DNA of 64,000 nucleotides. It comes from Tetradesmus obliquus. Taxonomy: Eukaryota > Chlorophyta > Chlorophyceae > Sphaeropleales > Scenedesmaceae. Positions 1 to 63,152 of this stretch are shown piece after piece (the first letter of the stretch is position 1; the number at the start of each line of letters is the position of its first letter). The notes under the pieces are model-generated. The model was not told the DNA's origin. It did no database searches and worked only from the letters and a program-made list of their open reading frames with translations. Both the position numbers and the translations under genes were made by a program. The stretch is taken from NCBI GenBank assembly GCA_030272155.1, contig CP126201.1, forward strand, positions 1,532,501 to 1,596,500. The letters are read 5' to 3'.

Positions 1-293
1 TGTCCACGACAGCAGCAGCAGCAGGAAGCGCCGCGCCCCTGCTGCTGCCCAGCAGTGCAGCCGCCTCAGCCACAGCAGCAGCCAGCAGCTGCCCAAACAG
101 GCCCCCAGGGCTTAGGGTTTCCAGGTAGTGTAAAACCTGCTCCCCTTCCTTGTGGGGGTTTAGCAGCGGCCGCTGAGCAGCAGCAGGCTGAGCTGGCGCT
201 ACAGCCCACAGCTGCTGCCAGCTGCTGCTGCTGCTGCTGCTGCCGGTGTTTGGCTGCGCTGAATCATCATCCTGCTGTGGCTCCTGCGGCTCA

Positions 294-335
<42 letters not shown>

Positions 336-456
336 TCCCTAGGGGTGTACCACCTCAGGAAGTCATCCAAGCAGCAGCCAGGGTTGGCAGCTTTGAAGGA
401 TGACATGTCAGACAGCAGCGGCGCAGCCATCAGCCGCTGCCGCAGCAGCAGCAAGT

Positions 457-504
<48 letters not shown>

Positions 505-1224: not shown

Positions 1225-1261
<37 letters not shown>

Positions 1262-2315
1262 GAGGCTAGTGCGCCTACCAGGCCGTCTGTCTCTCCTCCA
1301 GGTGCACACATTCAGCATCTGCAGCTTCTGCTGCAGCAGGCAGCTGTCAAGATCTGGGGCAGGAGGGCCGCCGAAGCTGCCGGCAGCAGCAGCAGCAGCA
1401 GCGCCCCTCGGCTCAGCAGCAGCAGCAGCAGCAGGAGCGCTGCTGCTGCTGCCAGAGAAGCTAACTGCAGTTCCTGCTGCTGGAGGTGGTTGTGCGTCAA
1501 GAGGGGTGCTGTTGCCGTAGCTGCTGTGCCGGCTGTGGCTGCCAGTGGCAAGCCTGCTGCCGCTGCTGCTGCTGCTGCTGCTGCCGGGAGGCATGTAGGG
1601 CAGCAGCGTGCGCTGCTCCCAGAACTGCAGCCGCACCTGCAAGGGCAAGGGAGGATGTGTGAGGACTCAGGCACAATGCAGACTTGAAGATGAATGCTTG
1701 AAGCAGCAACAGGTACAATTAGGTCAGAACATGCCGCAGGCCTGCCAAGAGACGCTGCCAGAACAGGCAGCTGCCATGCCAGCCGGCTGCAGCGGTGGAA
1801 GCAGCAAGGATGATGGCTGCCACTGCAGCGTGTGAGACAGCCACATGTAGGTGACCAGTGACACCCGGCATAGATATTTGCGCAGCAAAGCAACACTGAA
1901 CTTTTGCCTGCAACCGCTCGTAAGTCAATATTCATTCAGTGCAATGGACTGCAATCAAGAGGTGCATGCAACACCGCCCAGCTGCACAGCCTTGCTGGCC
2001 GCCATGGCACCAGCCCACCTGTGTCACAAAGCGCTGCCACAGCGCAGCCACTGCACGCACATATGCAACGCAATGTGACATTTTGCACAGTTCAAACCTT
2101 GGCTGCGGCTGTGCCTGTGGCCAAGCCCTAAACCCACCTGCGTAACAAAGCGTTGCCACAGCGCAGCCACCGCACGCGCATTGCCAAACAGCATGGCATG
2201 ACAGGCCAGCCGGCACAGCAGACTGCCAGGTGGAGCAGCACGAGGAAGCACTCCACTGCTGCTGCTGCTGGTGGAGGCAGCAGCACCTGAAGATGAGCAT
2301 CCTGGCTGCTGCTGG

Positions 2316-2347
<32 letters not shown>

Positions 2348-3297
2348 AGCATCATAGCCAACTAGCTGTGCTGTAGGCAGCCTGCCTGACCCGTGCCTGC
2401 TGCCGCTGCTGCTGCCCTGCCTGCTGAGCTCCATGCTGCTGCTCCTGCTGCTGCTGCTGCGCCGCAGCAGGCCGCTGCTGCTGCTGATGCCGGCTGCCCT
2501 AGGGGGGCTGAGTAGGTCTCTGAGCACTGCATCTAGCACAGTGTCAGGGGGCAGGACGGGTGCTGCTGCTTCGCCACGCGCCTCCCACCACTCAGCACCT
2601 GCAGCAGTGCAGCACAAGGTAAGGCACAACGTAAGCAGTATAGCGACTGCTAGGTCATGGCAGCTGCGATTGTTGCTGGGCTGCACTGGCTGGGAACCAT
2701 GTGCCGACGATTCCGCCCTTCTGATAACAACAAAAGCAGCTGCAGCTACTCCACAGCAGAGCTAGCAGCCAACAGGCACCAGCTGCCACCAGCACATGAA
2801 TGCAATCAGCAGCCGCACCTGCCGGCTGATACAGGCTCTTTGCAGCAGTGGCAGCAGTGCGGGCCGTCATCAGTGCACCCAGCATCGTTGTGAAGGAGCC
2901 ACCAGGGCGACACCCTTGTTGCTACATGCATCACCCCACAAGTCAACTTCTCGGGAAAGCACTCGTGCCGCTGCAAGCTTCACCCTTGAAAAATAGCGCA
3001 GCCACAGAAAGCACAGCTACTAGCAACCCAGCTAAAACCAAGCTGCCTGGAGAAAAACCGCTTTTACACGCACCTGCCAGCTCATACAGGCTCTTTGCAG
3101 CAGTGGCAGCAGTGCGGGCCGTCATCAGCGCACTCAGCATGGTCGTGAAGGATCCAGGGTCCAGCTCAGCACCCCTGCTGCTGCTGCTGCTGCTGCTAGG
3201 GTTGTAGCCGTAGGGTTGAGGGCACACGCCTGACAGCCTGCCCCCTTCCTGCAGCACTACTGCGGCCAGCTCGGCACTCCACAGCCAGTCAGCACCT

Positions 3298-3334
<37 letters not shown>

Positions 3335-5815
3335 TTCTTGGCCCAAAAATTTCCATCACCTGCAAGGTGTTCCCATCAGCAGCGAACACGCTGACGTGGC
3401 TCCAGCTTCACCAGGATCAGATCCACAGCAGCAGCAGACTACAGAGGCAAGCAGGACGAACACAACAGCCTTCTGTATACAAGGCAATGCCGCACTGCTT
3501 TTAACCCTACAAGAGGCCAAGCACCATCAAACTGCACAGTGGCCACAAACAAGCCTACTAATTCACTACAGGAGCAGCGCCATAGGAACAGCAGCCAACA
3601 AAACGACTAGAACGGACTTTACCGCAACAAATACTGCGCGTCCACGGCCCCACCTGCAGCCGCCACGCTGACGTGGCGCCTGTGCCTGTCTGCGCTGCGC
3701 ATGCCCAGCCGCCCCTGCCGCAGCGGGCTGCTGCTGAAGCCATGACGCACCACATGCAGCAGCCAGTGGTCAGCAGCAGCAGGCTCAGCCAGCAGCTGCT
3801 GCATGACTGCAGGCGACACTGCAGCAGCAGCAGCGCCGCTGCCGCTGCGCATCCCCTGCTGCTGCTTGTTAGGTGTGCTGGTGACGCTCGGCGGGCCGTG
3901 CTGCTCTTGCTGCTGCTGCTCAGCTGCCTGGCTGCTGATTAACTGCCTGTCTTGCCACACAACGTCTAGCTCAAGTGCTGTTACAGGGTCCCTGTGCTGC
4001 GCCCAAGGGTGCCAGGGCGCATCTGCATCCCACTCTAACTCATCCTCGTCATCATCCTCTGCAGGGTTTAGGTGCCCAGCCTGGCTAAACCCTAAGCCCT
4101 GAGCGGCCCTAAACCCCGCCACTGCCTCGCCAGCAGCACTGCCGTGCCTGCTGCTAACACCCTGCTGCTGCTGCCGGCTGCTGCCGGCGTGCTGCAGCAG
4201 CTGCTGCTGCAGCCAGTGCTTTCTGCTGGCATCAGGCAGGCGGAATGTGTAACACGCAGACATCCAGACGGCATGGCCGGTAGGTGCACCAAGTGCTAGC
4301 AGGTCACTGCTACTGCTGCTGCTGTTCTGCTGCTGCTGCTGAGGGCTGCTAGCTTGTCTGCTGCTGCTGCTGCCGTTGTTCCAGTACCTGCTGCTGCCAG
4401 CGGCTGCAGCAGCCGCCGCGCCAGGCGACGCAGCAGCGGCAGCAGCAGCGGCAGCAGCGGATGCGGCAGCAGCAGCACTGCCCTCCCCGAGGGCGTCTAG
4501 GCATGCTGCTGCTGCAGCGGGGCTGTGAGGGGTGAGCTGATCAGCAAAGACCGCAAGCTGCTGCTGTGGTGTTGTCAGGTGGCGAGGCAGCCTGCTGATG
4601 TGGATGCTGTCAGTGGTGAAATACACGCTGCCGCAGCCGACCTGTTACATGCAAGAGAACATGACATAACATAACCATGTTCACACAGGGAAGGAGGCAT
4701 GCCGCGACATCAGTGACAAGGACGGAAGGATGCTGATGTATGATGTGGCAGCCTGCTGATGTGGATGCTGTCAGTGATGAAGTACACGCTGCAGCCATGC
4801 ACCTGTCACATTACATCAAACAAGATGACCGTCAAGCAAGGAGCCATGCACTTCTGTGTTGATAGCATCCTTTTTTGCTCCAGCATTACCAGCGCCTACT
4901 TATATATCCAACACCTGACCGAGGCGAATAGGCCTGGAACTGACCTGTGCCGCGCCTCAGTAGGCGTCCCGCAGCCCGTCAAGCACACACACCCCAACAA
5001 GCTGCTGCAGTGCTACTGCTGCTTTAGATCAACACATCACTGACCGCCCACCTGTGCCGTGCCGCAGTAGGCGTCCCTCAGCGCGTCATGCACCGGCATC
5101 AGCAGCGGCCAGCCCACCCCGCCCCCAGCCAGCGCCAGCCGCCCCACACTCATCAAGCTGCTGGCCTCAGCAGCATCCAGCAGCCGCCGGCTGTAGCTGG
5201 CGGGCTGTAGCAGCACGAAGAGATCCAGCCCAAACCAGCGCTGCAGCTTATGGCTGCCGCAGCCGGCGGCTGGGGCCCACCAAGGGGGTTTAGCACATGG
5301 CAGCGCCTGAAAAGACCCAACTGTTAGGGTTGACTGACCATTTGCTTGTGTGTGATCTAGCGCTCCTGCTGCTGCTGTAGATGGTGGTGGTGTTGGTGTG
5401 TTGTAGCAGAAGGGCCACCAGGTTCTGCTGGCAGCTGTCCTGCTCTGATCTTGGCGTACTGCCGCTTGTACTGCTGCCAGTGCTGTGCTGTTGGGCTGGC
5501 TGAGAGCCTCAGGTGCCGGCAGCTGCACTAGCCTTGATGTCGCCTCTTCTCCTTCCTCTGCTTCTTCACCTTCCTCTGCTGCTGCTGCTGCAGTGTGACT
5601 GGTAGTGCTGCTGCTGCTGCCGGTGAGGCGCTGCACAAGCTTTGGTTTGGGTGCCTTGGAGCGGCTTCCAGCAGCAGCAGGTGCAACGGCACTGCCTAGG
5701 CCAAGGCCAGACAGTGCATCGGCAGCGGCAGCTGCAGCCGCTGCTACTGCCTTCACGCCACTGCTGCTGCCGGCAGCTGTAGCACTTGCAGTGCTGCTGG
5801 AGCTTGCAGCCGGCT

Positions 5816-5849
<34 letters not shown>

Positions 5850-16209: not shown

Positions 16210-18401
16210 TCAGGGCAGCATGGCCAGGAACTCTGTGTGCTTGATCGGCAGGCTGAACATGGGGAAGGTGAACTTGACCGCAGCATCCTGCTCCTCTTGG
16301 CTGCAGCATGGCAGCAGCAGCAGCAGGTGGCATGGTTCAGTCAGAATTCTGCTTCAAAGCACTGCGTTGCTGAATGAGCTTAGGGCAATCTGACGTGTGA
16401 CGGTATGAGTGGAAAGCTTCACGTGCAGATGAGGTGAGTCAGGCAGTTGATCGGTTGATCAGCGACGCATGCAACACCCCTGCAGCGTGGAATGCCTGCC
16501 GCCCCCATGTAAATGCTGAACGTTTCGTAAAAGCTTCATCATCATCAGCTCACCTAGTTGCTGCACAGCAGTCCGTCAGTGTGAACACCTTGAAGCCATT
16601 CTCATACGCTGCCCGCATGGTGGACTCCACACAGCAGTTGGTCTGTGAGGAAGAAGCAAGGCAGGACAAAGAGCTGAGCAACTTGTTGTATCTGCGAAGC
16701 AAGACCTTTAGCAGCACTGCTGTGTCAGACGCACAGATGCATGCGACTGCTACGTCTGCCGAAGCCAATGTTACAAGCCAGATGGGCTGCTGCCGCGTTG
16801 GTGCATCAACCCTCACGGTGCCGCTAGTGCAGCCAGATATGAGGAAAATGCATGCTGCCGCGCCTCACCAGGAACCCTGCCAGCACCACGTTCTCAATGC
16901 GGTTCTGGTAGAGGATGAACCTCGGGTTGGTGCTGGCAAAGCCGCACAGGCCTGACCGGCACAGCCCTTATGGAGCTGAGCTGCTGCGTCAGCAGCACAA
17001 ATACATGCTGCGTGCAACCACCACCGACGCCTGCGCTGGTCAGTACAGCTGCTGCCAGCAATGCCCACGACATCACTGCTGCAGGTTGTACCAATAACAA
17101 CAAGAATTGCATGCTGCCGCGCCTCACCAAGAAGCCCGCCAGCACCACATTCTCAACGCGGTTCTGGCTCAGGATGAACCTCAGGTTGGTGCTGGCAAAG
17201 CCGCACAGGCCGCGCTTGCCCTGCACAATCACATCTGTGTCTGCTGGCTTCATGGTATCACAGAAGGCGCCGCCCCACTCGGATGCCTTGAAAGCGCCGC
17301 CGCCCTTGACACTGCACAAATAAATAGCACAAGTCGGGCAAACAGTGGCAACAGTGTGACTTGATTGTGTGCCATGTCTGTGTCTGCTGGCTTCATGCTG
17401 GCACAGAAGGCACAGCCCCACTCTGACGCCTTGAAGGCGCCGCCGCCCTTGACACTGCATAACAAATGAGGCATAACAAAGCAGGCACGAGTCCGGCAAA
17501 CGGCTTCGAGTTGAGTGTGTGGCATGTCTGATTGTGCTGGCTTCATGGCGTCACAGAAAGCGCCACCCTACTCGGATGCCTTGAAGGCGCCTCCGCCCTT
17601 GACACTGCACGCACACGAACAGCGAGGCATGAGTTGCAGAGACGGTAAGTTGATGGGAGGGTGATGCTTCATACTGTCACAGTAGGCGCCGCCCTACTCG
17701 GATGCCTTGAAGGCGCCGCCGCCCTTCACACTGCACACTCGCAAATAAACACGAGCAGCGACGCCAAAGGAATTTCCTTGGTCGTGCAATAACACACACA
17801 GCACCTTTGCAAGCCACCTTGAGTGCACCGGCTTGCATGCTGATGTGAAGGGACAGAGGCACAGCGGCAACTTTACAGGTGTGTTTCTGCAGTTGCAGCT
17901 GCAACGTGAACAGGCAGAGCCATCAGCTGGCTCAGTGTTGAACAAACACACCAGCACGTAACGGATGCAACATGACAAGCGGCAGCTGCCCAGTAAGATG
18001 CCTTCCTGAAACAGTCAAAAGTAGATCAAGCTCAAGCAACATGCTGCTGCTTTGCTCACTTTGCCAGGATGCCGTATGGCTCCTTTGACAGCTCCTTATA
18101 GTCATCAGAGACTGCAGGAGGAACAGCATAGCAGCGAACAAGACAATTGCAGCAGTCAGATAACTGCGGAAGAGCGGGACAAGACAGTGGCGCTGCAAGA
18201 AGCAGGCAGCAGGTATGAAGCGCTGATGGTGGTTCCTGCTGCTGGATCATAGTAAGCGCTGCGCAGTAGCAAGCACTCCTTGCATCGCTTATGCAACACT
18301 GGGCTCGCGGCGCTGCTGCTGCAGACGGCACCAAGCTGAGTGTACCCAGATGATGGCGCTGTTTCACCACCCAAAGCAGCTTGGCGACCCATCATCAAGT
18401 G

Positions 18402-21691: not shown

Positions 21692-24196
21692 ACAATTTAC
21701 AGTGGCCAACAAGCTGTTAATGCTGCTGGTGCCGTTCCTCGGCAAATGGACGTACGCGCGCATGCACGAGCAGGTGCGGGCATGGGAGGTGCACAGCGCT
21801 GTGATTGTCCTCATCTGGGACTGCTTTATTACAATGCAGCTGCACATAGCTGTAAGTTGCAGTTGAACGTGTTGAGCTTGTTGAACTCTAGCTTGGGGCG
21901 ACACCTGTGCGAGCCACACCCCTCTCGCGGTGCAGCTAACTCACAGGCTGGCTGTCGTTGCTTCACGTCAATGCCTCTGCTGTTACTTCTGTCATGTAAC
22001 AGATTGCCGGCGGCCAGCGCTACCGGCCGCCGTCTGTTGATGTCAATGCGCCCGACCTGTTCATCCCGCTGATGGGGCTGTGGGCGTACGCGCTGCTGTC
22101 GTGCACGGTGCTGGCCTTCAAGCACACCTTCAAGCCTGAGGCCATGAGCGCCACAGTGAGTTGGGCAGGCTGCTCCTGAGAGCATGTGTCGCGTGGGTGG
22201 CAGCCACAGCTGCTGCTGGTCTGGGGTACAGCTGGCAGTGCAAGTCCTTGGGGAGCAGCAACAGGCAATGAGGCCATGAGCACTGTGCAGTTCGGGTTGG
22301 CTTCGCCCCTATGCATGCACCTCAAGTCATGCTCGCCGCCGTGCTGCTGCTGCTGCGGCTGCTGCTGCACTGCGTTGACATCAACATTTCGCTCCCACTG
22401 CAGCCGTACAGCGCGGGGCGTGCACTGGGTGGCGCTTTTGTGTACAGACACATACAAATATGTTCTGCCCTTTTGCTGCTGCTGCTGCTGTCCATTCCGT
22501 TTCTCCCTGCAGCTGTACAGCGCGTGCTTTGCGTGGGGCGTGCACTGTGTTGTGCCGTAACAGGCATACAAACACAATGTTGCCCTTTCACTGCCGCAAC
22601 TTGTTGTCCCTCGCCGTTATTTGCCCCTGCAGCTGTACAGCGCGTGCTTTGCGTGGGGCGTGCACTGGGTGGTGGCGCGGCTTGAACAGACATACACATA
22701 CACTGAGTCATGGTTGCTGCCTTGTGTAATCTGCTGTTGCCCCCGCAGCTGTACAGCGCATGCTTTGCGTGGGGCGTGCACTGGGTGGTGGCGCGGCTGC
22801 TGCTCAAGGGGCTCAATGTGCCCAGCGTGCCCTGGGCGGAGCTGCTGGCCTACACGGGCTACCCCTTCGTGATGATCAGCATCACCACAGTGGCAGGCTT
22901 CCTGGCAGGTAATACAGCTGAACGGTATTGGACTGTGTCTGTACTGTATCTGGTAGATGCTAAACGTGCCAAGTTCTATGTGGCTATTTCATACTTGCCA
23001 CTGCTGTGGTGGCTGCTGGCATACACGGGGTACCCCGACATGATCAGCATCACCACCGTGGCGGGATCCCTGGCAGGCAAGTGGGACGTAATCGTGATGC
23101 GCTACAACGCGCGGCTGTGCAGGCGCATGGGACTGCAACTGCTATAGCGCCGTACAGCGCATCAGGGTGTGCTCAGCCGCTGCCCGCCGTACATCGCATC
23201 GCTTTGTACACCTGCTGCTTCGCTGCTCCTGCAGGCAAGTGGGGCTACTACGCGCTGGGCGCGTAAGGCAGCTGGCGATGCACCTGCAAGGCTGTGCAAC
23301 GGCTGTTCACTGCACAAAAGCTCATTGACCTCATCATGATGGCATTTTCTTTGACTTCAAATGCCTGCAGGCAAGTGGGGCTACTATGCGCAGGTCGCGT
23401 ACGGCAGCCTGAGCATGCTGTCAAGCCTGTGGGTGTATCAACAGCCTGGTCCCTGCTCAAAAATGGTTTCATACTGTTTCATTTGGCTGCAGGCAAGTGG
23501 GGCTACTACGCGCTGGGTGCGTACGGCAGCCTGGCCATGGCCATCTTCATGGTCAAGACCATGAAGCGAGTCATCTTCCAGGAGACGCGCACCTACGGTG
23601 GGTGGAGCTGGAGCAGTTTGTTGATGCAAGCACACAGTGCAGAAACGGGATGCGCAGAGGCACTTGCTGCAAACAGTGTGTGTGTGCTGGTATCATCTTT
23701 CAGGAGTGCACGACTCCTTGTGATGAGTAGAGCTGGGGTTTTTCATCTCCCTCCAGATACAGCTAGGTCTGCAGTGCGTAAAGCCAACTTGCCTTGGAGC
23801 GGTGGGGACAGCAGAGAGGCAGACATTCCTCTATGTGTTTCTGCTTGCTGGGGCAGTGTGCTATTGCACATCAGACACATGAGCACACACTGCGCAGGGA
23901 AGGGGTCACCAGACGGTGCGTGCGCAGCATCACAGGGTGCAGTGTCATGAGCTCCAAGCCTGTCATTGGCTCACAAGGCCGGGCATTGCCTCCATCGCGC
24001 AACACTCTCAAACCGTGTTATGGCGGTGGTTGTGTTGTTTACCAAAACGCTAACTTTTCTGCTGTTGCTGCTGCTGCTGTTGCTGCTGCCCTGGCTGTCT
24101 GCAGGCACTGACATGCGCATGGCCAACTACCTGCTGCTGGCCCTAGCCATCTTCCAGTTCCCCTTCGCCTTCTGGCTGGCCTACCGGCCGGTGTGA
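20020..24196 (+). CDS. YIF1: YIF1 family membrane protein (Yip1-interacting factor), 376 aa
   Basis: Eight exons join in frame: 20020-20373, 20647-20728, 21139-21252, 21703-21773, 22003-22155, 22749-22908, 23493-23597 and 24105-24196 (1131 nt). The N-terminal 120 residues are Pro/Gln/Tyr-rich (PPYNYGPPPPQG). The conserved part follows: NKLLMLLVPFLGKW, VDVNAPDLFIPLMGLWAYAL, AWGVHWVVARL, LLAYTGYPFVMISITTVAG, GYYALGAYGSLAMAIF and the last helix ALAIFQFPFAFWLAYRPV. The DVNAPDLFIP motif and about five membrane helices identify YIF1, which works with YIP1 and Rab GTPases in ER-Golgi transport. Intron 1 needs a GC donor (CAG|GCGAGT) to keep frame. The introns before exons 6 and 7 contain repeated copies of those exon starts. 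Confidence 0.93.
21645..21690 (+). repeat. (CTG)n tract before the YIF1 exon 4 acceptor
   Basis: About 15 CTG units end 13 bases before the acceptor TTTACAG at 21696-21702. The position suggests the run serves as the pyrimidine-containing tract of the intron rather than as coding sequence. Confidence 0.8.
22390..22800 (+). repeat. Fourfold array of the YIF1 exon 6 start
   Basis: CTGCAG followed by an exon start coding LYSACFAWGVHWVV occurs with first exon bases at 22404, 22514, 22633 and 22749 (spacings 110, 119 and 116). The first copy is degenerate and lacks part of the codons. The third is nearly identical to the fourth, which is the one that continues into the full 160-nt exon. Confidence 0.9.
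22845..23545 (+). repeat. Echoes of the exon 6 end and exon 7 start of YIF1
   Basis: The exon 6 end (LAYTGYP...ISITTVAGFLAG) is repeated at about 23015-23075. The exon 7 start (GCAAGTGGGGCTACTA, coding GKWGYY) is repeated at about 23234, 23369 and 23493, with a partial version at 23074. The 23234 copy has TAA in place of the Tyr codon. Only the 23493 copy fits the gene model. Confidence 0.85.
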
Positions 24197-36137: not shown

Positions 36138-38833
36138 TCAGCTGGCCGCGGGCGGTGCTGCCGGCGGTGCTGCTGCTGCTGCTGCTGATGCTGGCTCCTG
36201 CACGCCTATCCTACGTGTGTTATAGCCGCCGCAGCCGCTGCACTTGTGACCGACCACATGGAATAGCACATCTGAACGCGCGCTGCAGTCGTTGCACAGT
36301 ATGTTAACCTGCGTCACACGCACAGCACCACACAACACAACTCAGGGAGTCTTGTTGCAGCGCTGGCACATGGAAGAGCACATCTCAGCGCGCGCTGCAG
36401 TCGTTGCACAGTATATTGACCTGCGTCACACACACAGCACCATACAACACAATTCAGGGAGTCTTGTTGCAGCGCTGGCACATGGAAGAGCACATCTGAG
36501 CGCGCGCTGCACTCGTTACACAGTAAATTGACCTGCGTCACACACACAACATCACACAACGAAATCAATGCCTGTTGCAGCGCCGGCAATGCCGACCGTC
36601 TAACGTCCTGCTCATAATACATGAAGATGTGGGAGGCTTGAACAAAAGATGTCAATGTTGGAGTGTGTGCATTGTTGTGTCCCACAGTCATAATGTGTGG
36701 TTTGCGACAAAACTATCAGCAGCACACAGCAGTACAGAGCAACAGTAAGCAGCTTTGAACAGCACAGTCGACACACAGACCACCGCGCTGGGCTCCCCTG
36801 CCGTGAATCGCTGCTGCTCACCTGCACATGCTTATACTCTTCAGCGATCAAGCTCACACAACTCACCCACACTCTGTTGCCCTGCCCAATAATGCTGCTC
36901 ACCTGCACATGCTTGTACTCTTCAGCAAATCAGCTCATACAAACACCCTCACCCACACTCTGTTGCCCTGCCCTGCAATGATGCTGCTCACCTGCACATG
37001 CTTGTACTCTTCAGCCATTCAGCTCATACAAACACCCTCACCCATACTCTGTTTCCCTGCCCTGTGATAATGCTGCTCACCTGCACATGCTTGTACTCTC
37101 CAGCAATGCAACCTCACACAACTCACCCACACTCTGTTGCCCTGCCCTGCAATGGTGCTGCTCCACCTGCACATGCTTGCACACTTCAGCAATCAACCTC
37201 ACACAAAATCTACAACACTATGCTCCACTGCTCTGCGATAATGCTGCTCACCTGCACATGCTTGTACTCCTCAGGCATTGGCGTGTCGCGCACCTGGCAG
37301 CAGCAGCAGCAGCAGCAGGGGCGGCAGCAGCAGGGGCGGCACAGAGCAGCCACAAGTGAGTGCAAAAGAAAGACTGAGTACAATTATTATCACGCTCATG
37401 AGCGGAGTAGTGGCAGCAGCCTGTAAGCCAGGTGGCTGACGCCCAGGAAGCCAGTAGCCTGCATCCGTACCGGTAAAGGAACGCATGCATGCCTGCGCAG
37501 GCAGACCACATGTGACTATGCTCTTCTCCAACCGTGTCCAGCGCCAACCACCCAACAACACAAACCCCACAACCTGGGCTTTTGCATCTGCAGAACCTCG
37601 GCAGGGCACCGCCTAGTCTAGGTGCCCGCTCTTTGCACAGGCCTGCCCAGTAGCAACCTCAGCAGCATGCTGCTGTCAAACCCTGCACTGCTGCCAGCCC
37701 ATCTTCCCAGCAGCAGCAGCAGCTACCAAAACACTACGCCACTTGGAGTTCCCAGGCGATCCCTCAACCTGGTACTGCTCGAGCCCAACCACGCTTAACT
37801 GCCGAGGTCTGATGGGATCGGGTTTTCGTGGTGGTGTGAGCGTAGCATGCACATGTGGCCGCCTGCCCAACATAAGACTGCCAACGAGCAACCTATCCTG
37901 GGCTGCCAGGGCGGATTTGACGTAGTTGCCTGTGCACACCGTGTAACCCCTCTTCTATAGGGCGGATTTGAACAATAGCCAAAGACATGACAAATTCACT
38001 GAACAATTTTGCTTGAATGCGTTGAGAATTGAGAATAGGCCAGCCGCGCTCAGCTGCTGGTCCAACAGCGCCCCACTATCGCCGCGCGTGGACACATGAA
38101 GGCACAAAACAGCTCTTGAACAATCACCTGCTGGTCCAGCAGGGCCCACTAGCGCTGCGTGTGAATAAAACGTGGCGAAAGCACAGCATCTTCATACAAT
38201 GGATATAAAACAAACATCCAGCCAGCCCCACCTGCTGGTCCAGCAGCGCCCAGTAGCGCCGCGCGTGGACACATGATGGCACAAAAACAGCTCTTGAAAG
38301 ATCACCTGCTGGTCCAGCACAGCAGAGCCCAGTAGCGCTGCGTGTGAATACATCGTGGCGAAAAGACAGCAACTTCATACCATGAATTTAAGCAAAACAG
38401 CAAGCCACCCTCACCTGCTGGTCCAGCAGGTCCCAGTAGCGCTGCGTGTGAATAAAACGTGGCGAAAACACAGCATCTTCATACACATACCATGGAATTA
38501 AACAAACCATCCAGCCACCCCCACCTGCTGGTCCAGCAGGGCCCAGTAGCACTGTTCGTGACGCTGCGACAGCATAACCAACCCGCATCGTCACAATGAA
38601 CATTCAGCCGCCCTCACCTGCTGGTCCAGCAGCCCCCAGTAGCGCTGTGCGTGATGATGAGACGGCATAAGCAACCCGCATCGTCACAATGAACAATCCA
38701 GCCGCCCTCACCTGCTGGTCCAGCAGCGCCCAGTAGCGCTGCGCATCACCTTGCGACAGGATGCACTTGAGGCACAGCGGGCAGGTGATGGTGTTGTGGC
38801 TCATCATCTCACGGTGGCACTCCTGGTGCGGTC

Positions 38834-38898
<65 letters not shown>

Positions 38899-38958
38899 GG
38901 CGGACAGAATTGTGTTGTGGCGGGTTGTGGCTCATCATCTCCCTGTGGCACTCCTGGT

Positions 38959-39017
<59 letters not shown>

Positions 39018-41720: not shown

Positions 41721-43341
41721 ATGTTGCTTCAAAGTGCTTCCTCGGGTGTTTCCAGCGCATGCAACTGCACCCGCAGCAGGGTGAGTGCCTGCCTGCTTAG
41801 GAGTGCCTCGGTGTAGAGGGCTGCTCGCACACAAAACTTAACCTGCCGTGTTTGGCTTTACAGGCGCGTGTGAAGGCGTTCTCTAGGGCACCATTTGCAA
41901 CCACAAGGCTTGTGCAGCCTGCAGGTGAGCCATGTTTGAGCAATGGCGGGGTGGGCTGCTTGCCTCGAACTCGGAATTCTGCAGCGTGCTGCATGTTCGG
42001 CTACTGCGAGCAGCGGGAGCAGGCGATTCATCATTGTAGAAAGCTCTACAGGGCGGTAGCTTCCCACAGCGCGCTGCATGTCTGCAGGCAGCAGGAGTGT
42101 GGCTGACACAGCAGTAGCTCAGGTGGTGTGCTGGATGTGCTGACGGTTTGTGTGCTTTCGTCATGGCTGCAGGCAGCAGGAGGCAGCTTCATGTCGTTGC
42201 TGCTGGCAAGGGAGGGCTGCTGGACAACCCCACTATCACCACCCCAAACATCGAAAAGGGGTGAGCACTTACTGCACACAGCAGTGCGGTCGGTCCTTCC
42301 TTGGACAGGCAGCACACTCAGATCTTGTTCTCATTGTCAGCAGCTTGGCACCCCATGCCAAGTATGGCAGCTGCTGTTGCCCTGACAGCCGCTTGCGCAG
42401 CTGTCGTGCTGCTCAGCAGCAGGCATCTGCTCACAATCTGCACTAGTGATTCACTGCCATGACTCACTGCTGTGCAAGTTTACTGTCAGCACATTCGCAC
42501 ACTTTCAGCTACGGGTTTTGATCGTAAAATTATTCCTGGCAGCGCGTGTTGCCTTCCCCTACTTTCTGCGTGTACCGGCCACGCTTGCTGTCACTGCGCG
42601 GATGCAGCCTGCAGGACTGACAGCAGCAAGCAGAGGCTACCCTTCTACGTTGTGCTGCCGATTTGACCATGCTGAACTCATCTCATCATTGTGCCTGTGC
42701 TGTTTTTATCGTGTGCTTGCAGGACGGAGAGCAGCAAGAAGAAGCCGCCCATCTACAAGGTGATGCTGCACAACGACAACTACAACAGGCGCGAGTATGT
42801 TGTCAAGATCCTGCTCAAGACAGTGGAGGGGCTGACTGTTGATGATGCAGTCAACGTGATGCAGGTGCGCCGAGGTTGCTGCGCGTCGCAGTGTGGTAGT
42901 GGTGCTGTGTTGTGATTGTTGTGCCTGTGTAGGCAGTGGATTAGCGCACATCGGATGACACTGCCAACCTGATGCAGGTGGCATGCTTTGCCTGTTGCAG
43001 CGCAGCGTTGTGATACTGTTGCAGCAGCAGCGCTGCATGGACAGTTGATGATCCAGGGCTCAAGCAGTCACCGCTGCAGCAGGTGCAGGGGGCAGCACAG
43101 CGAGGTGGTAGTTGCTGCAACATACACGCGCCCTGACATCATGTCACCTCGCTTTGATACGAATCTTTCTTGGCCGTGTGTTGACCTGCTGTGTGTTTTG
43201 TGTTGCTGCTGCTTTGCTTTGCAGGAGGCCCATGAGACTGGCGTTGCCATGGTGGTGGCATGTGCTCAGGACAAGGCTGAGTCATACGTGGAGTCCATGC
43301 GCCTAAACGGGCTCATCGCTTCCATGGAGCCAGGCCATTGA
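41721..43341 (+). CDS. clpS: ClpS, N-end-rule adaptor of the Clp protease (155 aa, plastid-type)
   Basis: Five exons join in frame: 41721-41780, 41864-41924, 42173-42260, 42723-42864 and 43225-43341 (468 nt). The first ~60 residues are Ser/Arg/Ala-rich (MLLQSASSGVSSACNC, RARVKAFSRAPFATTRLVQP) and fit a chloroplast transit peptide. The mature domain reads PPIYKVMLHNDNYNRREYVV, KILLKTVEGLTVDDAVNVMQ, EAHETGVAMVVACAQDKAES and YVESMRLNGLIASMEP. The DNxNxREYVV and EAHExGxA motifs are the ClpS signature; the H-N-D-N stretch and the following helix bind destabilising N-terminal residues. It delivers substrates to the stromal ClpC/ClpP complex. Introns 3 and 4 contain decayed copies of the exon 4 edges. 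Confidence 0.93.
42605..42655 (+). repeat. Decayed copy of the ClpS exon 4 start
   Basis: CTGCAGGACTGACAGCAGCA and the following ~25 bases resemble the real exon 4 acceptor region at 42715-42765 (TTGCAGGACGGAGAGCAGCA), 105 bp downstream. The echo has a TGA and several substitutions. Confidence 0.6.
42930..43095 (+). repeat. Decayed copies of the ClpS exon 4 end plus donor
   Basis: Two degenerate echoes of the exon end (GTTGATGATGCAG...ATGCAG then GTG) lie at about 42950-42982 (ACACTGCCAACCTGATGCAG|GTGG) and 43041-43088 (ACAGTTGATGATCCAGG...GCAG|GTGC) inside intron 4. Confidence 0.5.
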
Positions 43342-46190: not shown

Positions 46191-48285
46191 GTTCAGAGCA
46201 AGAGATTCTGGACAGCTGCAGCGGCAGCTGGGTGCACATGCACCAATACAACCAGCAACAACGCAGGCAGCAGCAGTGCTGAGTGCACTAGCAGGCAGTA
46301 GAGTCGACAAGCCACATACTGCAGGAGGCTCAGGCAGCAACGGTGGCAACAACAGCAGCAGCCGCAAGCACGTTGGAGAGCACGACGATGGCAGCAGCAG
46401 CGGCTGGACAAGTAGCCTGCTGTCCCGCCTGCTTGCAGGAACGCTGCTGCTGCAGCAGCTGGTGCAAGCAGGCCCTGCAGCAGCTGCGTGGGGCAGCAGG
46501 TCCCGCGTAGAGGCCAAGCAGGAGGAGCTTCGGCTGCTGCCTGCCTGGGAAATTGATGCGTTTGTGGACAGGATGTCGGACCTGTCTGGCCCTATCCTGA
46601 ACAACATGGGATTTTCTGGGCTGCTGGGAGCAGCTTCAGCTGCAGCCCTCAAGGTGAGCAGCTGCAACTTTACATGCCACTTGATGTAATGGTGTGATTT
46701 ATATGAGAATGAGCCACGACTGGTTTTGCACAGCAGCAGGCGGCACTGCGCCTGCACACAGACGACGGTTAGCAGGCGAGCAGCACAGCAGCAGGCGGTG
46801 GCACTGTGTGCAAGGATACTGCCGCAGCTGACAGCAGTACACTGCGGCGGTGTCGAAGGCTTTTGGTTATGCCGGAAAATGATATAATTGCATGTGTTGC
46901 ACTGGCGTTTTGGCTTGGTTGCATGCGTGCAGCCTAGCGCCGCTGCACCAGCCCTGCTGCTCTTGTACCTCAGCAACTCTTCATCAAGCATCAGCGCCTG
47001 CTGTGCGTCCTGTTCACCACATGCTCAGTTTCATCTGCCGCTGCTGCTGCTGCTGCTGCCAGTGGGTGGGCCGCACGCTGGCTGCTGCTGTGGGCATGTC
47101 TCTGCTGCTGGTGCAGGTGCTGTCCCATTACAATGTGGTGACAGTGAACTGGTCCGTGGTGCACCGCCAGGCGCAGCAAGTGCTGGACAGGACAGGCGAT
47201 GGGTGAGGCCCTCAGAAGGCAACCGTGCATGGCTATAACCATGTATGCTTGGCGTGGCTGGTAGCACAGCGGCGCTCTCAGCAGTGCAGCAGCAGTGCCA
47301 GCGGCTGTGTACAGTATGTTGTGTACGGCCCAGAGCCCACTTCTGTCAAGTCCTCCATACTCTGGCACCCACATGTATGTCTGGGCACAGGACTACCTGC
47401 TGGGTTGTCAACATGGAGTTTCAGATTTGTTTAGCATGTGAAGCAGATGGAAGTAGGTTGTGCTCTTGACACCTCTCACCAAAGGCTTGGCCTGTTTCCT
47501 GTTTGCCTGCAGGCGACTGGACAAAGATGACTACAAGCGCGTGCTGAAGCAAGGCATGGTCATCATGAGCGAGGTAAGCACTGTCGACAGACCGTTTCCA
47601 TTGTACAGCTGTGCTGCTGCAGCTTTTGTTGCTTTGCTGCATGTGCACGTAAACAGCAAGGTTGACTACAAGCGTGTGCTGAAGCAAGGCATGGTCATCA
47701 TGAGCGAGGTGAGCGCTGCGCTGCTGCAGCTCGCGTTGTTTTGCTGCTGCAGCCCTTGTTGATTGCTGCTTGCAGCAACAGCATGGATGATCACAAGCGT
47801 GTGCTGAAGCAAGGCATGGTCATCATGAGCGAGGTGAGCTGCGCTGCTGCAGCTCACCTCGCTCATGATGATGACCATGCCTTGCTGCTTTGCGCGCGTG
47901 ACAATGCTGTTTCAAGCACAGCCGTGCACGTGCAGTGGTGGTTTCGCAGGGCCCGATGCAGGCTTGCATGCCAACTGCGTGTGTTTTGACAGCAAGCACA
48001 CGTGTGTAAGTGTGAGGTGAACCTGCACTTGTGCGGACGATGCATCCTGCCTCAAGGTCGGTGGGCTTTGCACGCACGTGTACGGTTGTCTCAACAGCAA
48101 CATGGTTTCCTGAACACCCTGAACACTTGAGGCCCGCCTCGCCGCACTTGAAGTCAAGCAATGCTGGCGCCGCCGCCACTGCTGCTGCTGCCGTTGCTGC
48201 TGCTGCTGCTGTTGTCGTCTTGCAGGGTGTGCCGAGCGTGTCTGGCTTCCTGGTAGGATTCGTGGTGGGGCTGAAGGTGTTCTGA
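46191..48285 (+). CDS. FUN14-domain membrane protein (start exon not resolved)
   Basis: The C-terminal exons join in frame: to 46653, 47063-47202, 47513-47573 and 48226-48285. The N-terminal part from about 46191 is Gly/Ser/Ala-rich (SRVDKPHTAGGSGSNGGNN) and looks like an organelle-targeting region. The core reads MSDLSGPILNNMGFSGLLGA, VGRTLAAAVGMSLLLVQVLS, VTVNWSVVHRQAQQVLDRTG, DGRLDKDDYKRVLKQGMVIM and ends GVPSVSGFLVGFVVGLKVF. That is the FUN14 pattern: two hydrophobic segments with a Gly-rich first helix, an NW motif and a terminal GF.xGF..G helix. Animal FUNDC1 is an outer mitochondrial membrane mitophagy receptor; plant and algal members are poorly defined. No in-frame ATG is seen between a TGA at 46159 and the conserved part, so at least one upstream exon exists. 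Confidence 0.82.
47513..47836 (+). repeat. Threefold array of the FUN14 penultimate exon plus donor
   Basis: The segment coding DYKRVLKQGMVIMSE plus a GT donor occurs at 47513-47573 (real, with acceptor), about 47662-47709 and about 47786-47833. The second and third copies lack a good acceptor but keep GAGGTGAGC donors. The third ends in an inverted repeat, listed next. Confidence 0.9.
47811..47881. repeat. Hairpin formed by an inverted copy of the exon-donor edge
   Basis: The sequence GGCATGGTCATCATGAGCGA...GGTGAGCTG is followed after ~8 bases by its reverse complement with a 3-base insertion. The stem is about 29 bp. The donor GAGGTGAGC of the third copy is therefore buried in the stem if transcribed. 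Confidence 0.85.
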
Positions 48286-48960
48286 GCTGAGGCGGCTGCA
48301 GGCACCACCAGGGGCCACCAGTAATAGTGCGCGCTGCCAGGCCTGTTGCAGGCTACAGCAGAGGCCTGTATGCTCTTGGTGGGATTTGTGGTGGGCATGA
48401 GGATGTTCTAACTGGCGGCGGCTGCAGGCGCTTCTGTGCGCTGCCAGCTCTTCCTGCAAGGCTGCAGGACCGGCAGGCAGGCTCAAGCAGCACCTGACTG
48501 GGCAGGCGTCAGCTGCAGAAGGTGTGCTGAGCTGAGGCGGCTGCAGGCGCCAGCAGGAGCCACCAGTTGGTGTGCGCTGCCAGCCTTTCCTGCAAGGTGC
48601 AGCAACACAGGCTGCAGGACGGGGCTGAGGGGCCACCTGCAGACCGCTGCTGCAGCAGCCACAGCGGGCGGCTGCAGGCGCCAGCAGGGTGCCCTGCCGG
48701 CCTTTCCTGCAAGCTGCAACACGGGCAGGGGCGAGGAGCACCTGGCTTGACAGGCGTCACCTGCAGACCGCTGCTGCAGCAGCAGTGGTCACCCAGGTGA
48801 CTGGAGCTTGTGTGTAGGGGAGTGTTCAGTTTCCTGTGCTGGGCGTGCCAGCGTATACGCTGGCCATATGTATGCAGCAGTGGTCACCCAGGTGATGGCA
48901 GCTTGTGCGCACGCCCTGGGGAGTGAACAGCTTCCTGTGCTGCGCGTGCCAGCGTATGGG
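48286..48960 (+). repeat. Tandem repeats downstream of the FUN14 stop
   Basis: A decayed copy of the last exon (LVGFVVGMRMF with TAA) lies at about 48375-48410. Units of about 120-130 bp containing GGCGGCTGCAGGCGCCAGCA and CCTTTCCTGCAAG recur at about 48290, 48417, 48535 and 48667. A further ~110-bp pair with TGGTCACCCAGGTGA follows at about 48786 and 48883. Confidence 0.75.
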
Positions 48961-51955: not shown

Positions 51956-51959
51956 GGCT

Positions 51960-52552: not shown

Positions 52553-52583
<31 letters not shown>

Positions 52584-57345: not shown

Positions 57346-57746
57346 CGTCAACAAGAGTAGAGCAGGCGACTAGGAAGCACAAAACGATGACGCAGCAAAG
57401 GGAAAAGGCTGTAAGTAGGGGTATACGGTGTGTGGAGTGTTATACGAGGCAAACGGTGGGGCTTGGCAAACAAGCGGGCCCCATACGTGCCTCAAGCTCC
57501 CTGCCGATACACACCGTCACTTACGCACGTTCAAAAGCCTTTTACAAGTTATTTATCATCACATGCTGGACAGCTATCGACAAGCGCGGCCGCTGACCCA
57601 CACCAACTATCTCCTGCTCGGTCAAGTTGTCCGGCCAGCCCCCAGAAGCCCGTACGCAGTCTGCGGAGCAGCCAAACAACGCTAAGTTACCAGCAGTTGA
57701 CAGTTGCAGTGCATATTTCACTGAACGAACTGGGTCAAACCGGCGC
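57346..57746. other. No gene seen
   Basis: No exon is recognised on either strand. The sequence is outside the palindromic block and upstream of nothing recognisable. Confidence 0.3.
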
Positions 57747-58749: not shown

Positions 58750-60734
58750 TCACAGTGCTCGGCGTGCGTGGCAGTACAACCGTTCAACGGTTGTGCTTGG
58801 TGCTGACTGCTGCTCAAGCTGCTCTTGCGCCGCCTTGCGTAGCAGCTTGATGCAGGCTGTGACAACCAGCAGCAGCTTCTTAGCCACTGCAGGCAATGCA
58901 ACAGCACTGGCGCCCTGTATACCAGGCGCCCCTTGCTGCCTCAGGCCTGCGGTGGCAGGTGCTGCTGCTGCTGCCCATTGCTGTGCAAGCCAGTGGCTGC
59001 ATGTCACCTGCTGCGCCTCACATCCCCGCTGCTGCTGGTGCTGCTGCTGCTGGTGCTGCTGCTGCTGCTGCTGCTGTGGTGCTGCAGCCAGCCCCATGCC
59101 GCTCTTCAAGCTAGCGGTGAGGAGCTCAACAGCAGCTGACGAGGACACCTCCAGGGCATCAGCCACTGCACACAACATGGTTGGTGGTGCAGCGCCTGCT
59201 GCTGCTGTTGCTGCTGCTGTCGTTGCCTTGATTGCTGCAGCGCCTCCCTGTACTGCTGCTGCCTGTGCCTGATTGGCTGGTGTGCCATCAACATGCTGTC
59301 CCTGCCCTTCCTCTTGCTGCTGCTGCTGCTGCTGGTTGGGGTTGTCATATTCTGCAGCTTTGCTGGGGCTGAACAGCTCTGGAAGGCATAGCTGCAGCAG
59401 CTGCTGCGCTTCGCAGGCAAGCAGCAGCACCAGCTGCTGCATCAGGGCCAGCGGCAGATCAATGCATGCCAAGCAGGCTGCTCCAGCACACCCCAAGGAT
59501 GCACAGCTGCTGCTGCTGCCGCTTGCCAGTGTGGCTGTGTGTGGCGCTGCCGCTGATGCTGTGGATCTGTTGCTCAGCTGCTGCAGTAGCTGCTGCTGTG
59601 AGGAGTCCAGCAATGCCTGCTTCCATGTTTGCATTAGCCAGTGAGCTTGTTGCACCAGCGTGCTGGCACTTCCGAAGCTGCTGCTGCTGCTGCTGCTGCT
59701 GGTTGTTTGTGCGCCGTCTGCTGTGGCCCTGCTGGCTGTGGTGATGGGTGACAGCAGGCGTCCCTGCAGCTGCTGGCGCCTGCAGGTGTGGGCCACATAG
59801 AGCCAGCATGCCAGAGAGGCGAGAACATGTAATTTCAGCCTTGGGTTTATGTGAACATCATGTGCGTGGTGCACAAGCAACACCTTGGTCAGGCATGTGC
59901 AGCAGCATCGAGCTTCTGCCAACAGCAACCTTGCAGACACCAAACCTCTGAGTGCCGCTTGTGCAAGTTCAAAGTCCTCCTAAAAAAGTTGTGCTGAAGG
60001 TTGAAGCAGCTGATACAGGTTTCACGTCGCACGCTCACCTTGCAGTATCAGCTGGCTGCTGCACCCAGGCAATGAAGGCAGCAGCCCGCCCCGCTAGCTG
60101 CATGTTGCTGCTGCTGCTGCCACCCATATTCTCCATGTGAGCCTGCTGCCGCTGCTGCCGCCGCCGCTGCTGCTGCTGCTGCTGCTGCGCTGCTGCCATG
60201 CTGCTCTGAACCAGCAGGTGGCAGGCGAACTCGTACCAGCAGCGGTGCTGCACCACGAGCCTCCATGCGGTCACCACCTGCGGCGCAGTTGAAGCAGGAT
60301 GGTGATGTATGCCGCAGCATTATCAAGGGCTACCCAGGCAACCGCTTTGAGCATCATAGCATAGCAGGCGCCCAGTCGCAACAGCTGCCCAGGCATGCGT
60401 GAGCAGGGAGGCATGATCGCATCATACGCACCTGTTGCCACCTTGTCAGGATCGTAACATCGCTGCCCATTCTGGCAGCAGGCACTGCAAGGCGGCACTT
60501 GAGTTAACCACTGTACAAAATCGTCAGCGTTTCACAAACAGAGCACTCACCTCAAGCAAGTCGCTGCTTGCTGCGCCAGCTGCACAGCTGGGCTGCTGCT
60601 GACTGTTGAGGCTGCTGCAATGCCATGCACTCTGCTGCCACTCTCGCTCTGTTGGCCATGGTGCATCGTGACCGTCAAGCTGCAGCCACGCAGAGCCGAG
60701 GCCGTCACTCCCGCTGTTGCCGCCCGCAAACCCT

Positions 60735-60779
<45 letters not shown>

Positions 60780-63152
60780 GCTGCATGATTCTGGGCTTCA
60801 ACCTGCAGCTGCTGCTGCTGCTGCTGCTGCGGAGGCACACTTTGCTTTGGCACTTGCAGGCCCAGCAGCTGCAGCTCATCTGCTGCTACGCCAGGCAGCA
60901 GCTGCAACAGCTGTGCCAGGCCTGCTGCAGAGGGCTGCGCCACCAGCAGCTGCACCAGCTGCTGCTGCCAGGGCTGCGGGCACATCAGCAGGAAGGACCC
61001 TGCAAGCGCCAGCTGGTCGCTGCTGCACTCCTGCTGCTGCTGCTGCAGCGGGGACTGCAGGAATCTGCCTTGCTGTGGTTGGTCAGCTGCATCTGCATCT
61101 GAAGGCCTTGCTGCTGCTGCTGCTGCCATGGCGGCCCACGCTGGCCGCAGTGTGATGCTGGTCAGCTGCCACAGCCGCTGATGGCCTGTTGCTTCTAGCC
61201 AGCCCAGCAGCGTGCCAGAGGCCTGCGCAACACAGCACACAGCACAAACACACACACAGCACATCAGGCGCGAAAGCATTCGAGGATAACACTGCTGCAG
61301 AGGGTGTGACGTGTACACCACTTGGCCAGCTGCCACAGCCGCTGCTGTCCCGTGCGTTCTAGCCAACCTAGCAGTGTGCCAGCGGCCTGCGCCATGCAGC
61401 ACAACACAACAGCCATTGGTTGGCAGGTCCACGAAAAAACGCAACAAAATGTCACTAACGCAGCGAGAGTAGACGGTCTAGACGTCCCAAGAGCACCAGC
61501 GTGCTCAGAGTTGGCATTGTCATCAGCATGGCATCTGATCGGCAGAATTGATGTATTGAATTGCATGCAATGATCGGCAGGCAGCCTCACCTTAAGCATC
61601 AGCAGCGGGTGCGCAGCAAGGATGGCAGGCAGCTGCTGCCATGGAAGGCTGCTGTTAGCCAGCAGTGACACAATACTGCTGCTGCTGCTGTTGCTGCCAT
61701 TGGTCCCTGCTGCAAGTCCTGTGATTAACGGCTGAGGCGTGCTTTCAGACCCATCATGATCTGAAGCTCCTTGTGCAGGCAGCAGCGGCTGCAGCACAGC
61801 AGCAGCAGCTGCTTCCAGCAACCCATCCAGCAGCTGCGGCTGCAGCAGCAGTGCCTGCCGCCAGAAGCCGTCACCCAGCCCCGGGCCAACAACGCTGCCA
61901 GCTTTTAGCAAGTCCTGCAAGCTGAACAGCTTCAAGGCAGCAGCTGCTGCTGCTGCCCACTGCTGCTGCTGTGCAGCTGAGCAGACGTGCTTGCCATGGT
62001 GCCAAGCAGCAGAGATTGGCTCTGCCTGATCGTTCAGCCGCTGCCGTTTGCGCGCATCATTTGCAGACGCAGTGTCTGTAGCTTCAGGGTTCTTGCTGCT
62101 GCATGGCGCTGCTGCTGACGCTGCTGAGTTGCCAACAGCCAGTTGCAGTAGGTGTCTCAGAACAGATATGGGGCAGTCCTGCAAGGTGATAGAACAACCA
62201 CCAGTCATCTACTGGACAGCTGGCTTGCTCACAACCAACTCATGTGCAAACCAGGGCGCGCTATGCTCCTGATGTTTCAGCTGCTGGCTGCGCTATGGCT
62301 GCTGTTGCATAGCATGCCGTGCTGGAGTCAGATGTTCCAAAGCCGGCAGACAAGACTACTTGATCTTGGCAGAGCTCGCACCTAGCAGCAAAGTCATGCA
62401 CTGCAACCTGTAGAACACCAAAGTGTTTGCTTCTCACCTGTCCCTGCTGCAGCCCTGATACTTCTGCATCTGCTGTCGCCTGCTGCTGCCGCTGCTGCTG
62501 CTGCTGTAGCACACGGGCGAGCTGCTCCTGGGTGGCACGCAGCCCCTCCTGCAAGCAGGGAGCAGCACAGCATTGACTGTATTGACTGCTGCCCAGGCAA
62601 GGTACCTTGTTCAAGCTTGCTGGTGTTACAAACGTGCTGCATGCAGCAACGCAGATAACCTCTGCTGTGGCCTGTGCTGGCTGCAGTGGTTTGAGGCTGC
62701 AGTGGTTTGAGGCAGCCTGGCTGCAACCCAGCACATTTGGCGGCATCATGCTCACGTGCAACCCACCTGCACTGCTGCGACAGCGTCTGTGATGTGCTGC
62801 TCCTTGCTGGTTTGGTCGGCAGTTGCCTTGCATGCTGCAACAGAAGCTGCCAGCTGCTGCAGGTTCAGCTTCACTGCTGATGCATGGGCCGCCTGATGCT
62901 CATCCGCTGCTGCATCAGCGCTGCGCTTGTTTCCCGCCCTGGCGCCTGGTCACAACAGAGTTCAAAAACGCAAGCGCCTGTCAGCGGTCAAATGCCACTG
63001 CAGCTACATTCCAGGCGTGCATAAAACCATCCAAAGCAACAAGTAGAATCATATAGAGCAAATCACGCGGTAGACCAGCTGCGAAGCTTGCAAAAGCACA
63101 CCCGGGCTTACCCACCAGCTACAGCAGAAGCACTCAGGCCCAGCAGGCTCAT
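58750..63152 (-). CDS. Uncharacterised Gln/Ala-rich protein, 951 aa model
   Basis: Seven exons join with consistent phase: 63152-63116, 62945-62767, 62548-62438, 62178-61591, 61222-60551, 60277-60039 and 59779-58750 (2856 nt). The N-terminus (MSLLGLSASAVAG, then KLNLQQLAASVAACKATADQ and EGLRATQEQLARVLQQQQQR) is a helical, probably coiled-coil stretch. DCPISVLRHLLQLAVGN is followed by KRQRL, a possible nuclear signal. Leu-rich helical blocks come next (FWRQALLLQPQLLDGLLEAA, LPWQQLPAILAAHPLLMLK, GTLLGWLEATGHQRLWQL, VVTAWRLVVQHRCWYEFACH). Runs of Gln (16 near 60730-60780) and Ala interrupt them. The architecture resembles an alpha-helical scaffold, but I recognise no family. The intron before exon 5 contains an extra copy of its start. 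Confidence 0.7.
60738..60779. repeat. (CTG)n tract, about 14 units
   Basis: The run reads as CAG (Gln) codons on the minus strand inside the 672-nt exon of the 951-aa gene. A second shorter run of about seven units lies at about 60810-60830. Confidence 0.85.
61155..61400 (-). repeat. Duplicated acceptor plus 5' exon edge (951-aa gene)
   Basis: The exon start coding ASGTLLGWLEATGHQRLWQL at 61222 has an upstream copy from about 61390 coding AAGTLLGWLERTGQQRLWQL, both after GCGCAG. The upstream copy soon meets a stop and no donor keeps the phase, so the 61222 copy is taken as the real exon. Confidence 0.85.

Follow-up and report, generated by a model that had tools for sequence, protein, structure and literature searches.

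Tandem copies of exon edges within introns of the green alga Tetradesmus obliquus

Tandem exon duplications, including mutually exclusive exons, repeat exon sequence beside itself, and intronic minisatellites are tandem arrays of local extent that grow and shrink. In the potato RdRp gene, a segment spanning an intron-exon boundary is reported to have been duplicated in tandem (PMC4974935). For the green alga Chlamydomonas and its relatives, Craig et al. 2021 describe the cause of long introns as unknown (PMC8226300). A tabulated comparison gives T. obliquus a genome of 108 Mb, a GC content of 57% and a mean intron length of 462 bp, versus 230-302 bp in the other algae in the table (PMC5966456). 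Here we describe introns of T. obliquus that contain extra copies of the edges of their own exons, beginning with a stretch of 64,000 nucleotides of contig CP126201.1 (positions 1,532,501 to 1,596,500; G000:C11:1532501-1596500; 56.5% GC), referred to below as the window. We call an extra exon-edge copy in the adjoining intron an echo, and the distance from the real edge to its copy the spacing. Our search of open PMC papers found no account of a genome with introns repeatedly filled by their own exon edges.

We found that exon-edge echoes are real. A preliminary description of the window had named seven genes with such copies, and all seven were borne out (Table 1), ClpS only by a more sensitive search (70-77%). 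Pfam matches support four of the gene names: isochorismatase (PF00857), YIF1 (PF03878), ClpS (PF02617) and FUN14 (PF04930). Three open reading frame pieces of the gene called RAB3GAP1 had no Pfam match, and that name, taken from the preliminary description, is unconfirmed. Comparison of the window with itself gave 63 direct pairs less than 4 kb apart, 6 direct pairs farther apart and 15 inverted pairs, 4 of them near.

The echoes are short, local and direct. The window lies within a 104.66 Mb genome of 17 contigs, and we analyzed it together with 20 stretches of 10 kb and 20 stretches of 2.5 kb (314 kb in all). The positions of these stretches were picked by hand at round numbers, and the sample is not truly random. 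Among local repeats less than 700 bp apart in the 314 kb there were 186 direct pairs versus 2 inverted pairs. Both inverted pairs came from a single place, the inverted exon-edge copy in FUN14, the sole near inverted repeat in the sample; this copy suggests template switching. Only 1 of 221 direct pairs was 4 kb or more apart, a distance visible only in the window and the 10-kb stretches. As the preliminary description had it, the copies are tandem and of short period: in 67 arrays the median best-pair period was 124 bp (quartiles 112-138), and 43 had a period of 100-140 bp. Donor-side (32/50 events) and acceptor-side (18/50) versions both occurred, and pair identity ranged from approximately 68% to 100%. 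The whole exon was covered in 5 of 43 events and not covered in 38, so that whole-exon duplication is insufficient to account for the copies, most of which have one splice site. The GT or AG was retained in 36/43. The spacer of one clean pair (L008:4883-4950), the only spacer searched genome-wide, matched only itself.

Stop codons were echoed as well. In the gene for glutamate-cysteine ligase (GCL; L010:5402-5589) and in FUN14, the copy runs from the last coding bases to the start of the 3' untranslated region. Copy-making thus does not need splicing and extends beyond splice sites.

An assembly artefact is extremely unlikely. We found no sign supporting one; substitutions and indels distinguish copies of every age, and the contigs are chromosome-scale (those seen were 3-11 Mb each).

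We found that echoes are more frequent at exon edges than expected by chance. Edges were mostly predicted by a gene finder self-trained on the sequence analyzed. The gene finder merged neighboring genes, called some copies exons and made tiny exons. Edge counts depend on it, whereas tests based on the donor motif do not. (Unanchored self-training drifted towards CAG repeats and was dropped in favor of an anchored version. CTG/CAG runs are very numerous throughout the window, some immediately before acceptors.) Of the 67 arrays, 51 touched a predicted exon edge, 9 lay in introns only, 4 were exon-intron pairs and 3 were within exons. Without the exon-internal arrays, the edge share was 0.797, compared to 0.549 when the same loci were rotated (1,000 rotations; sd 0.057, maximum 0.731). 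We also simulated duplication and decay in eight array-free loci, rejecting exon-internal events and applying the same detection. Edge events made up 37% (181/489) of those detected, versus 76% (51/67) observed (Fisher p 1.6e-9). For copies of at least 88% identity the corresponding values were 68/202 simulated and 16/25 observed. A junction-centered search found an echo at 46/484 junctions and at 0/484 with a reversed target.

The excess was also seen genome-wide, using the donor-like heptamer AGGTGAG. The heptamer was repeated 92-122 bp downstream 1,466 times versus 585 times at 392-422 bp; the reversed heptamer gave 69 and 18 pairs, respectively. The single motifs occur 34,374 (AGGTGAG) and 6,662 (reversed) times. 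Per motif, near donor pairs were approximately fourfold more frequent than reversed pairs, or 3.3-fold once far pairs were subtracted. Part of this excess, by our estimate approximately threefold, is expected from conservation of the real donor and because duplications are not tolerated in coding DNA. The tie to exon edges is real, yet by the heptamer test it is largely a matter of survival.

These measurements bear on whether the arrays are ordinary minisatellites unlinked to exon edges, with exon-derived copies merely recognizable for longer. Constraint on the exon prolongs the time over which a copy can be seen, and 12-mer coverage just inside the donor edge was three to five times that in the intron 20-80 bp beyond, as decay predicts. 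Survival would account for about threefold of the fourfold donor excess, short-period donor minisatellites do exist (spacings of 30-42 bp), and in array loci 12-mer echo coverage was high in called coding sequence too (0.0789, compared to 0.0517 in predicted introns and 0.0026 in intergenic DNA). However, the edge excess persisted when compared with simulated events that had decayed and been detected in the same way, at 88% identity and above as well, and when compared with rotation of the same loci. The difference between intron and intergenic coverage in array loci also speaks against minisatellites. It is a weak point: in array-free loci the order was reversed (intron 0.0024, coding 0.0135, intergenic 0.0273 of 9,557 bases), so that intergenic DNA offers no clean contrast. 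On balance we regard unlinked minisatellites as an unlikely explanation.

Some tandem repeats in the data are of other kinds. A 33-bp minisatellite of 15.5 copies lies within a predicted coding exon of the window (33817-34327) and encodes a repeated FTPGQ-type peptide. On contig C16, a 274-bp array of approximately 14 copies occupies predicted intergenic DNA (L021 1-3959). Long arrays of 31-37 bp units, with a donor-like CAGGTGAGT in each, were found at G000:C6:3517349 and C9:3294056.

Protein homology indicates which splice sites yield the conserved product. The RCHY1 reading that joins exons past seven and five donor copies and two acceptor copies matches solved RCHY1 chains; residues 194-257 align to 8-71 of 2k2d, at equal lengths, across two echo-bearing introns. 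For GCL, the reading past five donor copies gives an alignment to the plant enzyme 9ufc that is ungapped through the junction. In the parts of both proteins that were tested, homology skips the copies, so that it is the first donor joined to the last acceptor that yields the conserved protein. Judging from these alignments, the outermost splice sites are presumably the ones used. For copies on both sides of an intron to do no harm, the outermost sites would have to prevail. We infer exon definition, with splice sites pairing across the exon, or else removal of mis-spliced transcripts. According to a study of Volvox, both that alga and Chlamydomonas seem to rely on intron definition (PMC4378016); the prediction from two-sided copies contrasts with that view. 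The preliminary description had also invoked intron gain by duplication of AG|GT sites. By homology, RCHY1 and GCL do not fit that model: the copies sit in introns that were already there, and the gain of an intron need not be assumed.

Based on these results we suggest, as the probable explanation, that short local duplications are hidden by outermost-site splicing and that introns grow stepwise. Duplications of approximately 120 bp would arise often in and around the genes of this alga, perhaps by template switching or end joining. Those straddling an exon edge would survive because splicing stays with the outermost pair of sites, namely the first donor and last acceptor. The added edge would thus become intronic, leaving the protein unchanged and the intron approximately 120 bp longer. 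The buried copy would then drift without function, the real edge being held by selection on the protein, and repeats once seeded may expand by unequal exchange or slippage between copies.

We found that the copies decay at close to the neutral ratio. A second set of 60 short stretches with a donor-motif pair was drawn from 100 listed places, all on contigs C1 and C2; places resembling short-period minisatellites were left out, as were the final few of the 100. Both sides could be aligned in 27/59 arrays found by donor pairs. In these 27, exon-side substitutions were 0.086 and intron-side substitutions 0.151, a ratio of 1.79 (95% 1.30-2.42). A ratio of approximately 2 is expected if only one exon copy drifts while the real exon is held. 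Gaps were multiples of three in 12/54 cases on the exon side and 23/124 on the intron side, and some RCHY1 copies carry stops or a frameshift. Together, the ratio, the disregard of frame and the stops indicate that, for the most part, the copies are not maintained to be translated.

Several observations weigh against local duplication followed by decay as the whole explanation. Half of the events (25/50) ended within 9 bp of the junction. Good copies, defined by an exon identity of 0.88 or more and a spacer of 30 bp or more, numbered 58; of these, 23 shared only 0-11 bp of intron, compared to 1-6% under 12 bp after simulated duplication and decay; the fraction was 17/44 once spacers longer than 130 bp were excluded. 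Mismatch jumped to 0.457 at +6 to +12 of the intron, from 0.06-0.15 within the exon; the splice dinucleotide stood at 0.105. Indels were less than half as frequent on the exon side as in the intron (0.0111 versus 0.0371 per site), and in the donor-pair arrays there were 8 indel events in 1,324 exon-side sites versus 105 in 2,122 intron-side sites. Mismatches between echoes leaned to codon position 3 (12, 6 and 21), and an in-frame stop was found in 0/21 ungapped echoes. These observations could mean that the copies are better kept than neutral DNA. In addition, the self-trained gene finder may favor copies as exons. Neutral decay as the full cause of the sharp ends was rejected by simulation (simple indel models, uniform ages), and duplication plus decay leaves the sharp-ended copies unexplained.

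The sharp ends raise the alternative that the exon itself makes or homogenizes the copies, by gene conversion or by copying of spliced RNA or cDNA, ending at the exon boundary. The 23 sharp-ended good copies are what such copying predicts. In the L016 gene, which we take to be NUB1-like (Pfam shows UBA domains), a copy at L016:591 is identical at 54/55 bases up to the exact junction, with nothing similar beyond, and in FUN14 and RCHY1 the spacers are more diverged than the exon part. However, the 35 remaining good copies had homologous spacers in 25 cases, so that whole duplication units are common; displaced spacer homology, which would account for a sharp end, was found in only 5/23 sharp-ended copies. 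(This test, with long tails and a cross-event null, superseded an earlier shuffle test in which 11/27 had z >2. A comparison of echo-echo identity with spacer identity was set aside as biased, the copies having been detected through their exon part.) Copying from exons also has to accommodate the echoed stop codons and 3' untranslated region starts, and copying of spliced RNA should sometimes bring along the start of the next exon, which was not noticed in the alignments viewed, although no dedicated test was made. We consider exon-templated copying doubtful as the source of the echoes. Its genome-wide form, in which the ends are written exactly to the exon border by exon-templated conversion or RNA/cDNA-templated repair, and exons lengthen and renew their own introns, seems rather improbable. 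Possible causes of the sharp ends are that intron sequence turns over faster than the GC-rich copy derived from the exon, that rearrangements followed later, that the exon converts the copy, or that only exon ends are copied. One sharp copy (L010:5402) ends approximately five bases past the stop codon, where a splice site is not needed, which argues that the coding border rather than the splice site matters.

Selection on the copies as functional alternative exons or decoy splice sites is another alternative. Differences between real edges and echoes were biased towards codon position 3 (23, 20 and 60 of 440, 443 and 447 sites; in a second count 45, 35 and 104 of 625, 628 and 614 sites), and the lack of in-frame stops in ungapped echoes and the frequent retention of GT or AG, described above, are also what function would predict. 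In contrast, most copies do not cover the exon, few gaps are multiples of three, and some RCHY1 copies contain stops or a frameshift. An approximately twofold position-3 bias would be expected anyway because the real exon drifts synonymously. Such drift, carried into echo-echo differences by sequential duplication, and the out-of-frame gaps weaken the position-3 mismatches as an indication of coding function. The left border of donor echoes was acceptor-like at a near-random frequency (5/19 versus 0.22), and the idea that the copies are small exons with both splice sites is unsupported. We consider selected function very unlikely.

Our preferred explanation, stepwise growth by local duplication, bears on intron length, as had been proposed. 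On contigs C4-C17, predicted introns at junctions with an echo had a median length of 407 bp (n = 45), compared to 294 bp at junctions without one (n = 323; p 0.002). Lengths were also compared within two genes picked because they bear arrays. The three RCHY1 introns with echoes measured 772, 1,418 and 943 bp, versus 284 and 465 bp for the two further introns modeled; in the L016 NUB1-like gene, four introns with echoes were 877, 518, 356 and 468 bp and two without were 241 and 231 bp. The origin of intron length is open in green algae, and here one step of growth is visible at all ages, from identical copies to copies nearly gone.

The interpretation in the preliminary description thus held in part. 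Local duplications that mostly carry one splice site, are not explained by whole-exon duplication and bear on intron length were supported; intron gain at AG|GT (in the two genes checked by homology) and the suggestion that most introns show echoes were not. On the latter point, the strict junction test (46/484) is a lower bound, as old copies such as those in ClpS can be missed.

The process is widespread and uneven. A stricter motif gave 94 places on 15 of the 17 contigs, some of them short-period minisatellites. Echoes were found at 45/368 junctions on C4-C17 versus 1/116 on C1-C3, the three largest contigs (p 4e-5; both are lower bounds). On C1-C3, 0/6 of the 10-kb and 1/8 of the 2.5-kb stretches contained a pair; the corresponding numbers were 12/14 (C4-C16) and 3/12 (C4-C17). 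Near versus far heptamer pairs numbered 78 versus 45 on C1, 22 versus 19 on C2 (to 7.0 Mb) and 1,366 versus 521 in the rest of the genome, indicating little excess on C1 and C2 and much in the remainder. A mixed-organism assembly was rejected as the cause because tetranucleotide profiles fail to separate the contig groups. The uneven spread could reveal what drives the duplications; recombination rate would be our guess.

Table 1. Exon-edge copies in the window (positions within the 64,000 nucleotides)
Gene	Feature	Position	Strand	Details
Called RAB3GAP1	donor-side echo	2014..2181	-	real edge 2133-2181, copy 2014-2062, spacing 119, 90%
Called RAB3GAP1	donor-side echo	2814..3182	-	real edge 3069-3182, copy 2814-2923, spacing 255, 85%
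Called RAB3GAP1	acceptor-side echo	4586..4811	-	real edge 4586-4650, copy 4747-4811, spacing 161, 86%
Called RAB3GAP1	donor-side echo	4943..5093	-	real edge 5050-5093, copy 4943-4986, spacing 107, 89%
Isochorismatase	edge pair (acceptor side per gene finder)	16846..17211	-	spacing 259, 91%
Isochorismatase	acceptor-side array	17234..17737	-	~3.5 copies, period ~143-150; low-coordinate copy runs on into coding exon
YIF1	array	22411..22798	+	period 120; reaches predicted acceptor of exon at 22749
YIF1	donor-side echo	22841..23080	+	real edge 22841-22912, copy 23012-23080, spacing 171, 83%
YIF1	acceptor-side echoes	23228..23539	+	edge 23487-23539; spacings 136 and 258, at most 92%
RCHY1	acceptor-side array	36255..36588	-	period 112, two copies, real edge at low-coordinate end; in-frame TGA in one copy (by eye)
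RCHY1	donor-side array	36796..37279	-	real donor 37252/37251, five copies, period 81-89
RCHY1	donor-side array	38040..38762	-	real donor 38712/38711, seven copies, spacing 73-110, higher-order 183-bp unit
RCHY1	acceptor-side echoes	38793..39068	-	exon starting at 38822; CTG runs separate copies
ClpS	decayed acceptor-side echo	42607..42766	+	copy 42607-42658, real edge 42715-42766, spacing 108, 77%
ClpS	decayed donor-side echo	42818..42980	+	real edge 42818-42867, copy 42931-42980, spacing 113, 70%
FUN14	donor-side array	47522..47855	+	real edge ends 47573, two direct copies, period 125-135
FUN14	inverted copy of donor exon edge	47829..47886	-	directly adjoins last direct copy
FUN14	echo of last coding bases, stop codon and 3' untranslated region start	48248..48429	+	spacing 126
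Gene at 58.9-63.1 kb	acceptor-side echo	61159..61403	-	real edge 61159-61239, copy 61323-61403, spacing 164, 83%

Two larger duplications were also seen in the window. A direct duplication at 8479-11589 (74-77%, approximately 2 kb apart) is probably a tandem gene pair, and nested duplications at 30642-32991 (up to 90%, 576 bp apart) lie in a region predicted to be coding.

The echoes resemble several known systems and differ from each. They share with tandem exon duplication the repetition of exon sequence next to the exon; they differ in that only the 5 of 43 events noted above cover a whole exon, as a duplicate with both splice sites would, and in that most gaps break the frame. They differ from intronic minisatellites in that the units are mostly anchored at an exon edge and mostly 100-140 bp long, and in that the spacers often cannot be aligned. 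In a minisatellite the spacer is repeated with the unit; by the spacer counts given above, this describes many of the remaining good copies and few of the sharp-ended ones.

Introners and other transposon-derived introns likewise add intron DNA in many genes of one genome and are described as dispersed copies of one element (PMC9860276). The copies in T. obliquus each come from their own exon, and dispersed homologous copies were not found: the one spacer searched is single-copy, and direct pairs at 4 kb or more were limited to the one noted above. The AGGT model of Rogers and Hellsten, as presented in PMC3443670 and PMC4974935, is similar in that a tandem duplication at AG|GT leaves the protein unchanged after splicing. 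In that model an exon-internal AGGT is duplicated and an intron is made, whereas in the two genes that we checked the unit straddles an existing junction. In the potato RdRp gene, a piece of the upstream exon became intronic, as in our alga. As described (PMC4974935), that is a single case with a new intron and a recruited donor; in T. obliquus there are many places, on both sides of introns that, in the genes checked, already existed. Duplication across an exon border was therefore already known, and the sharp-ended copies are the part most likely to be new.

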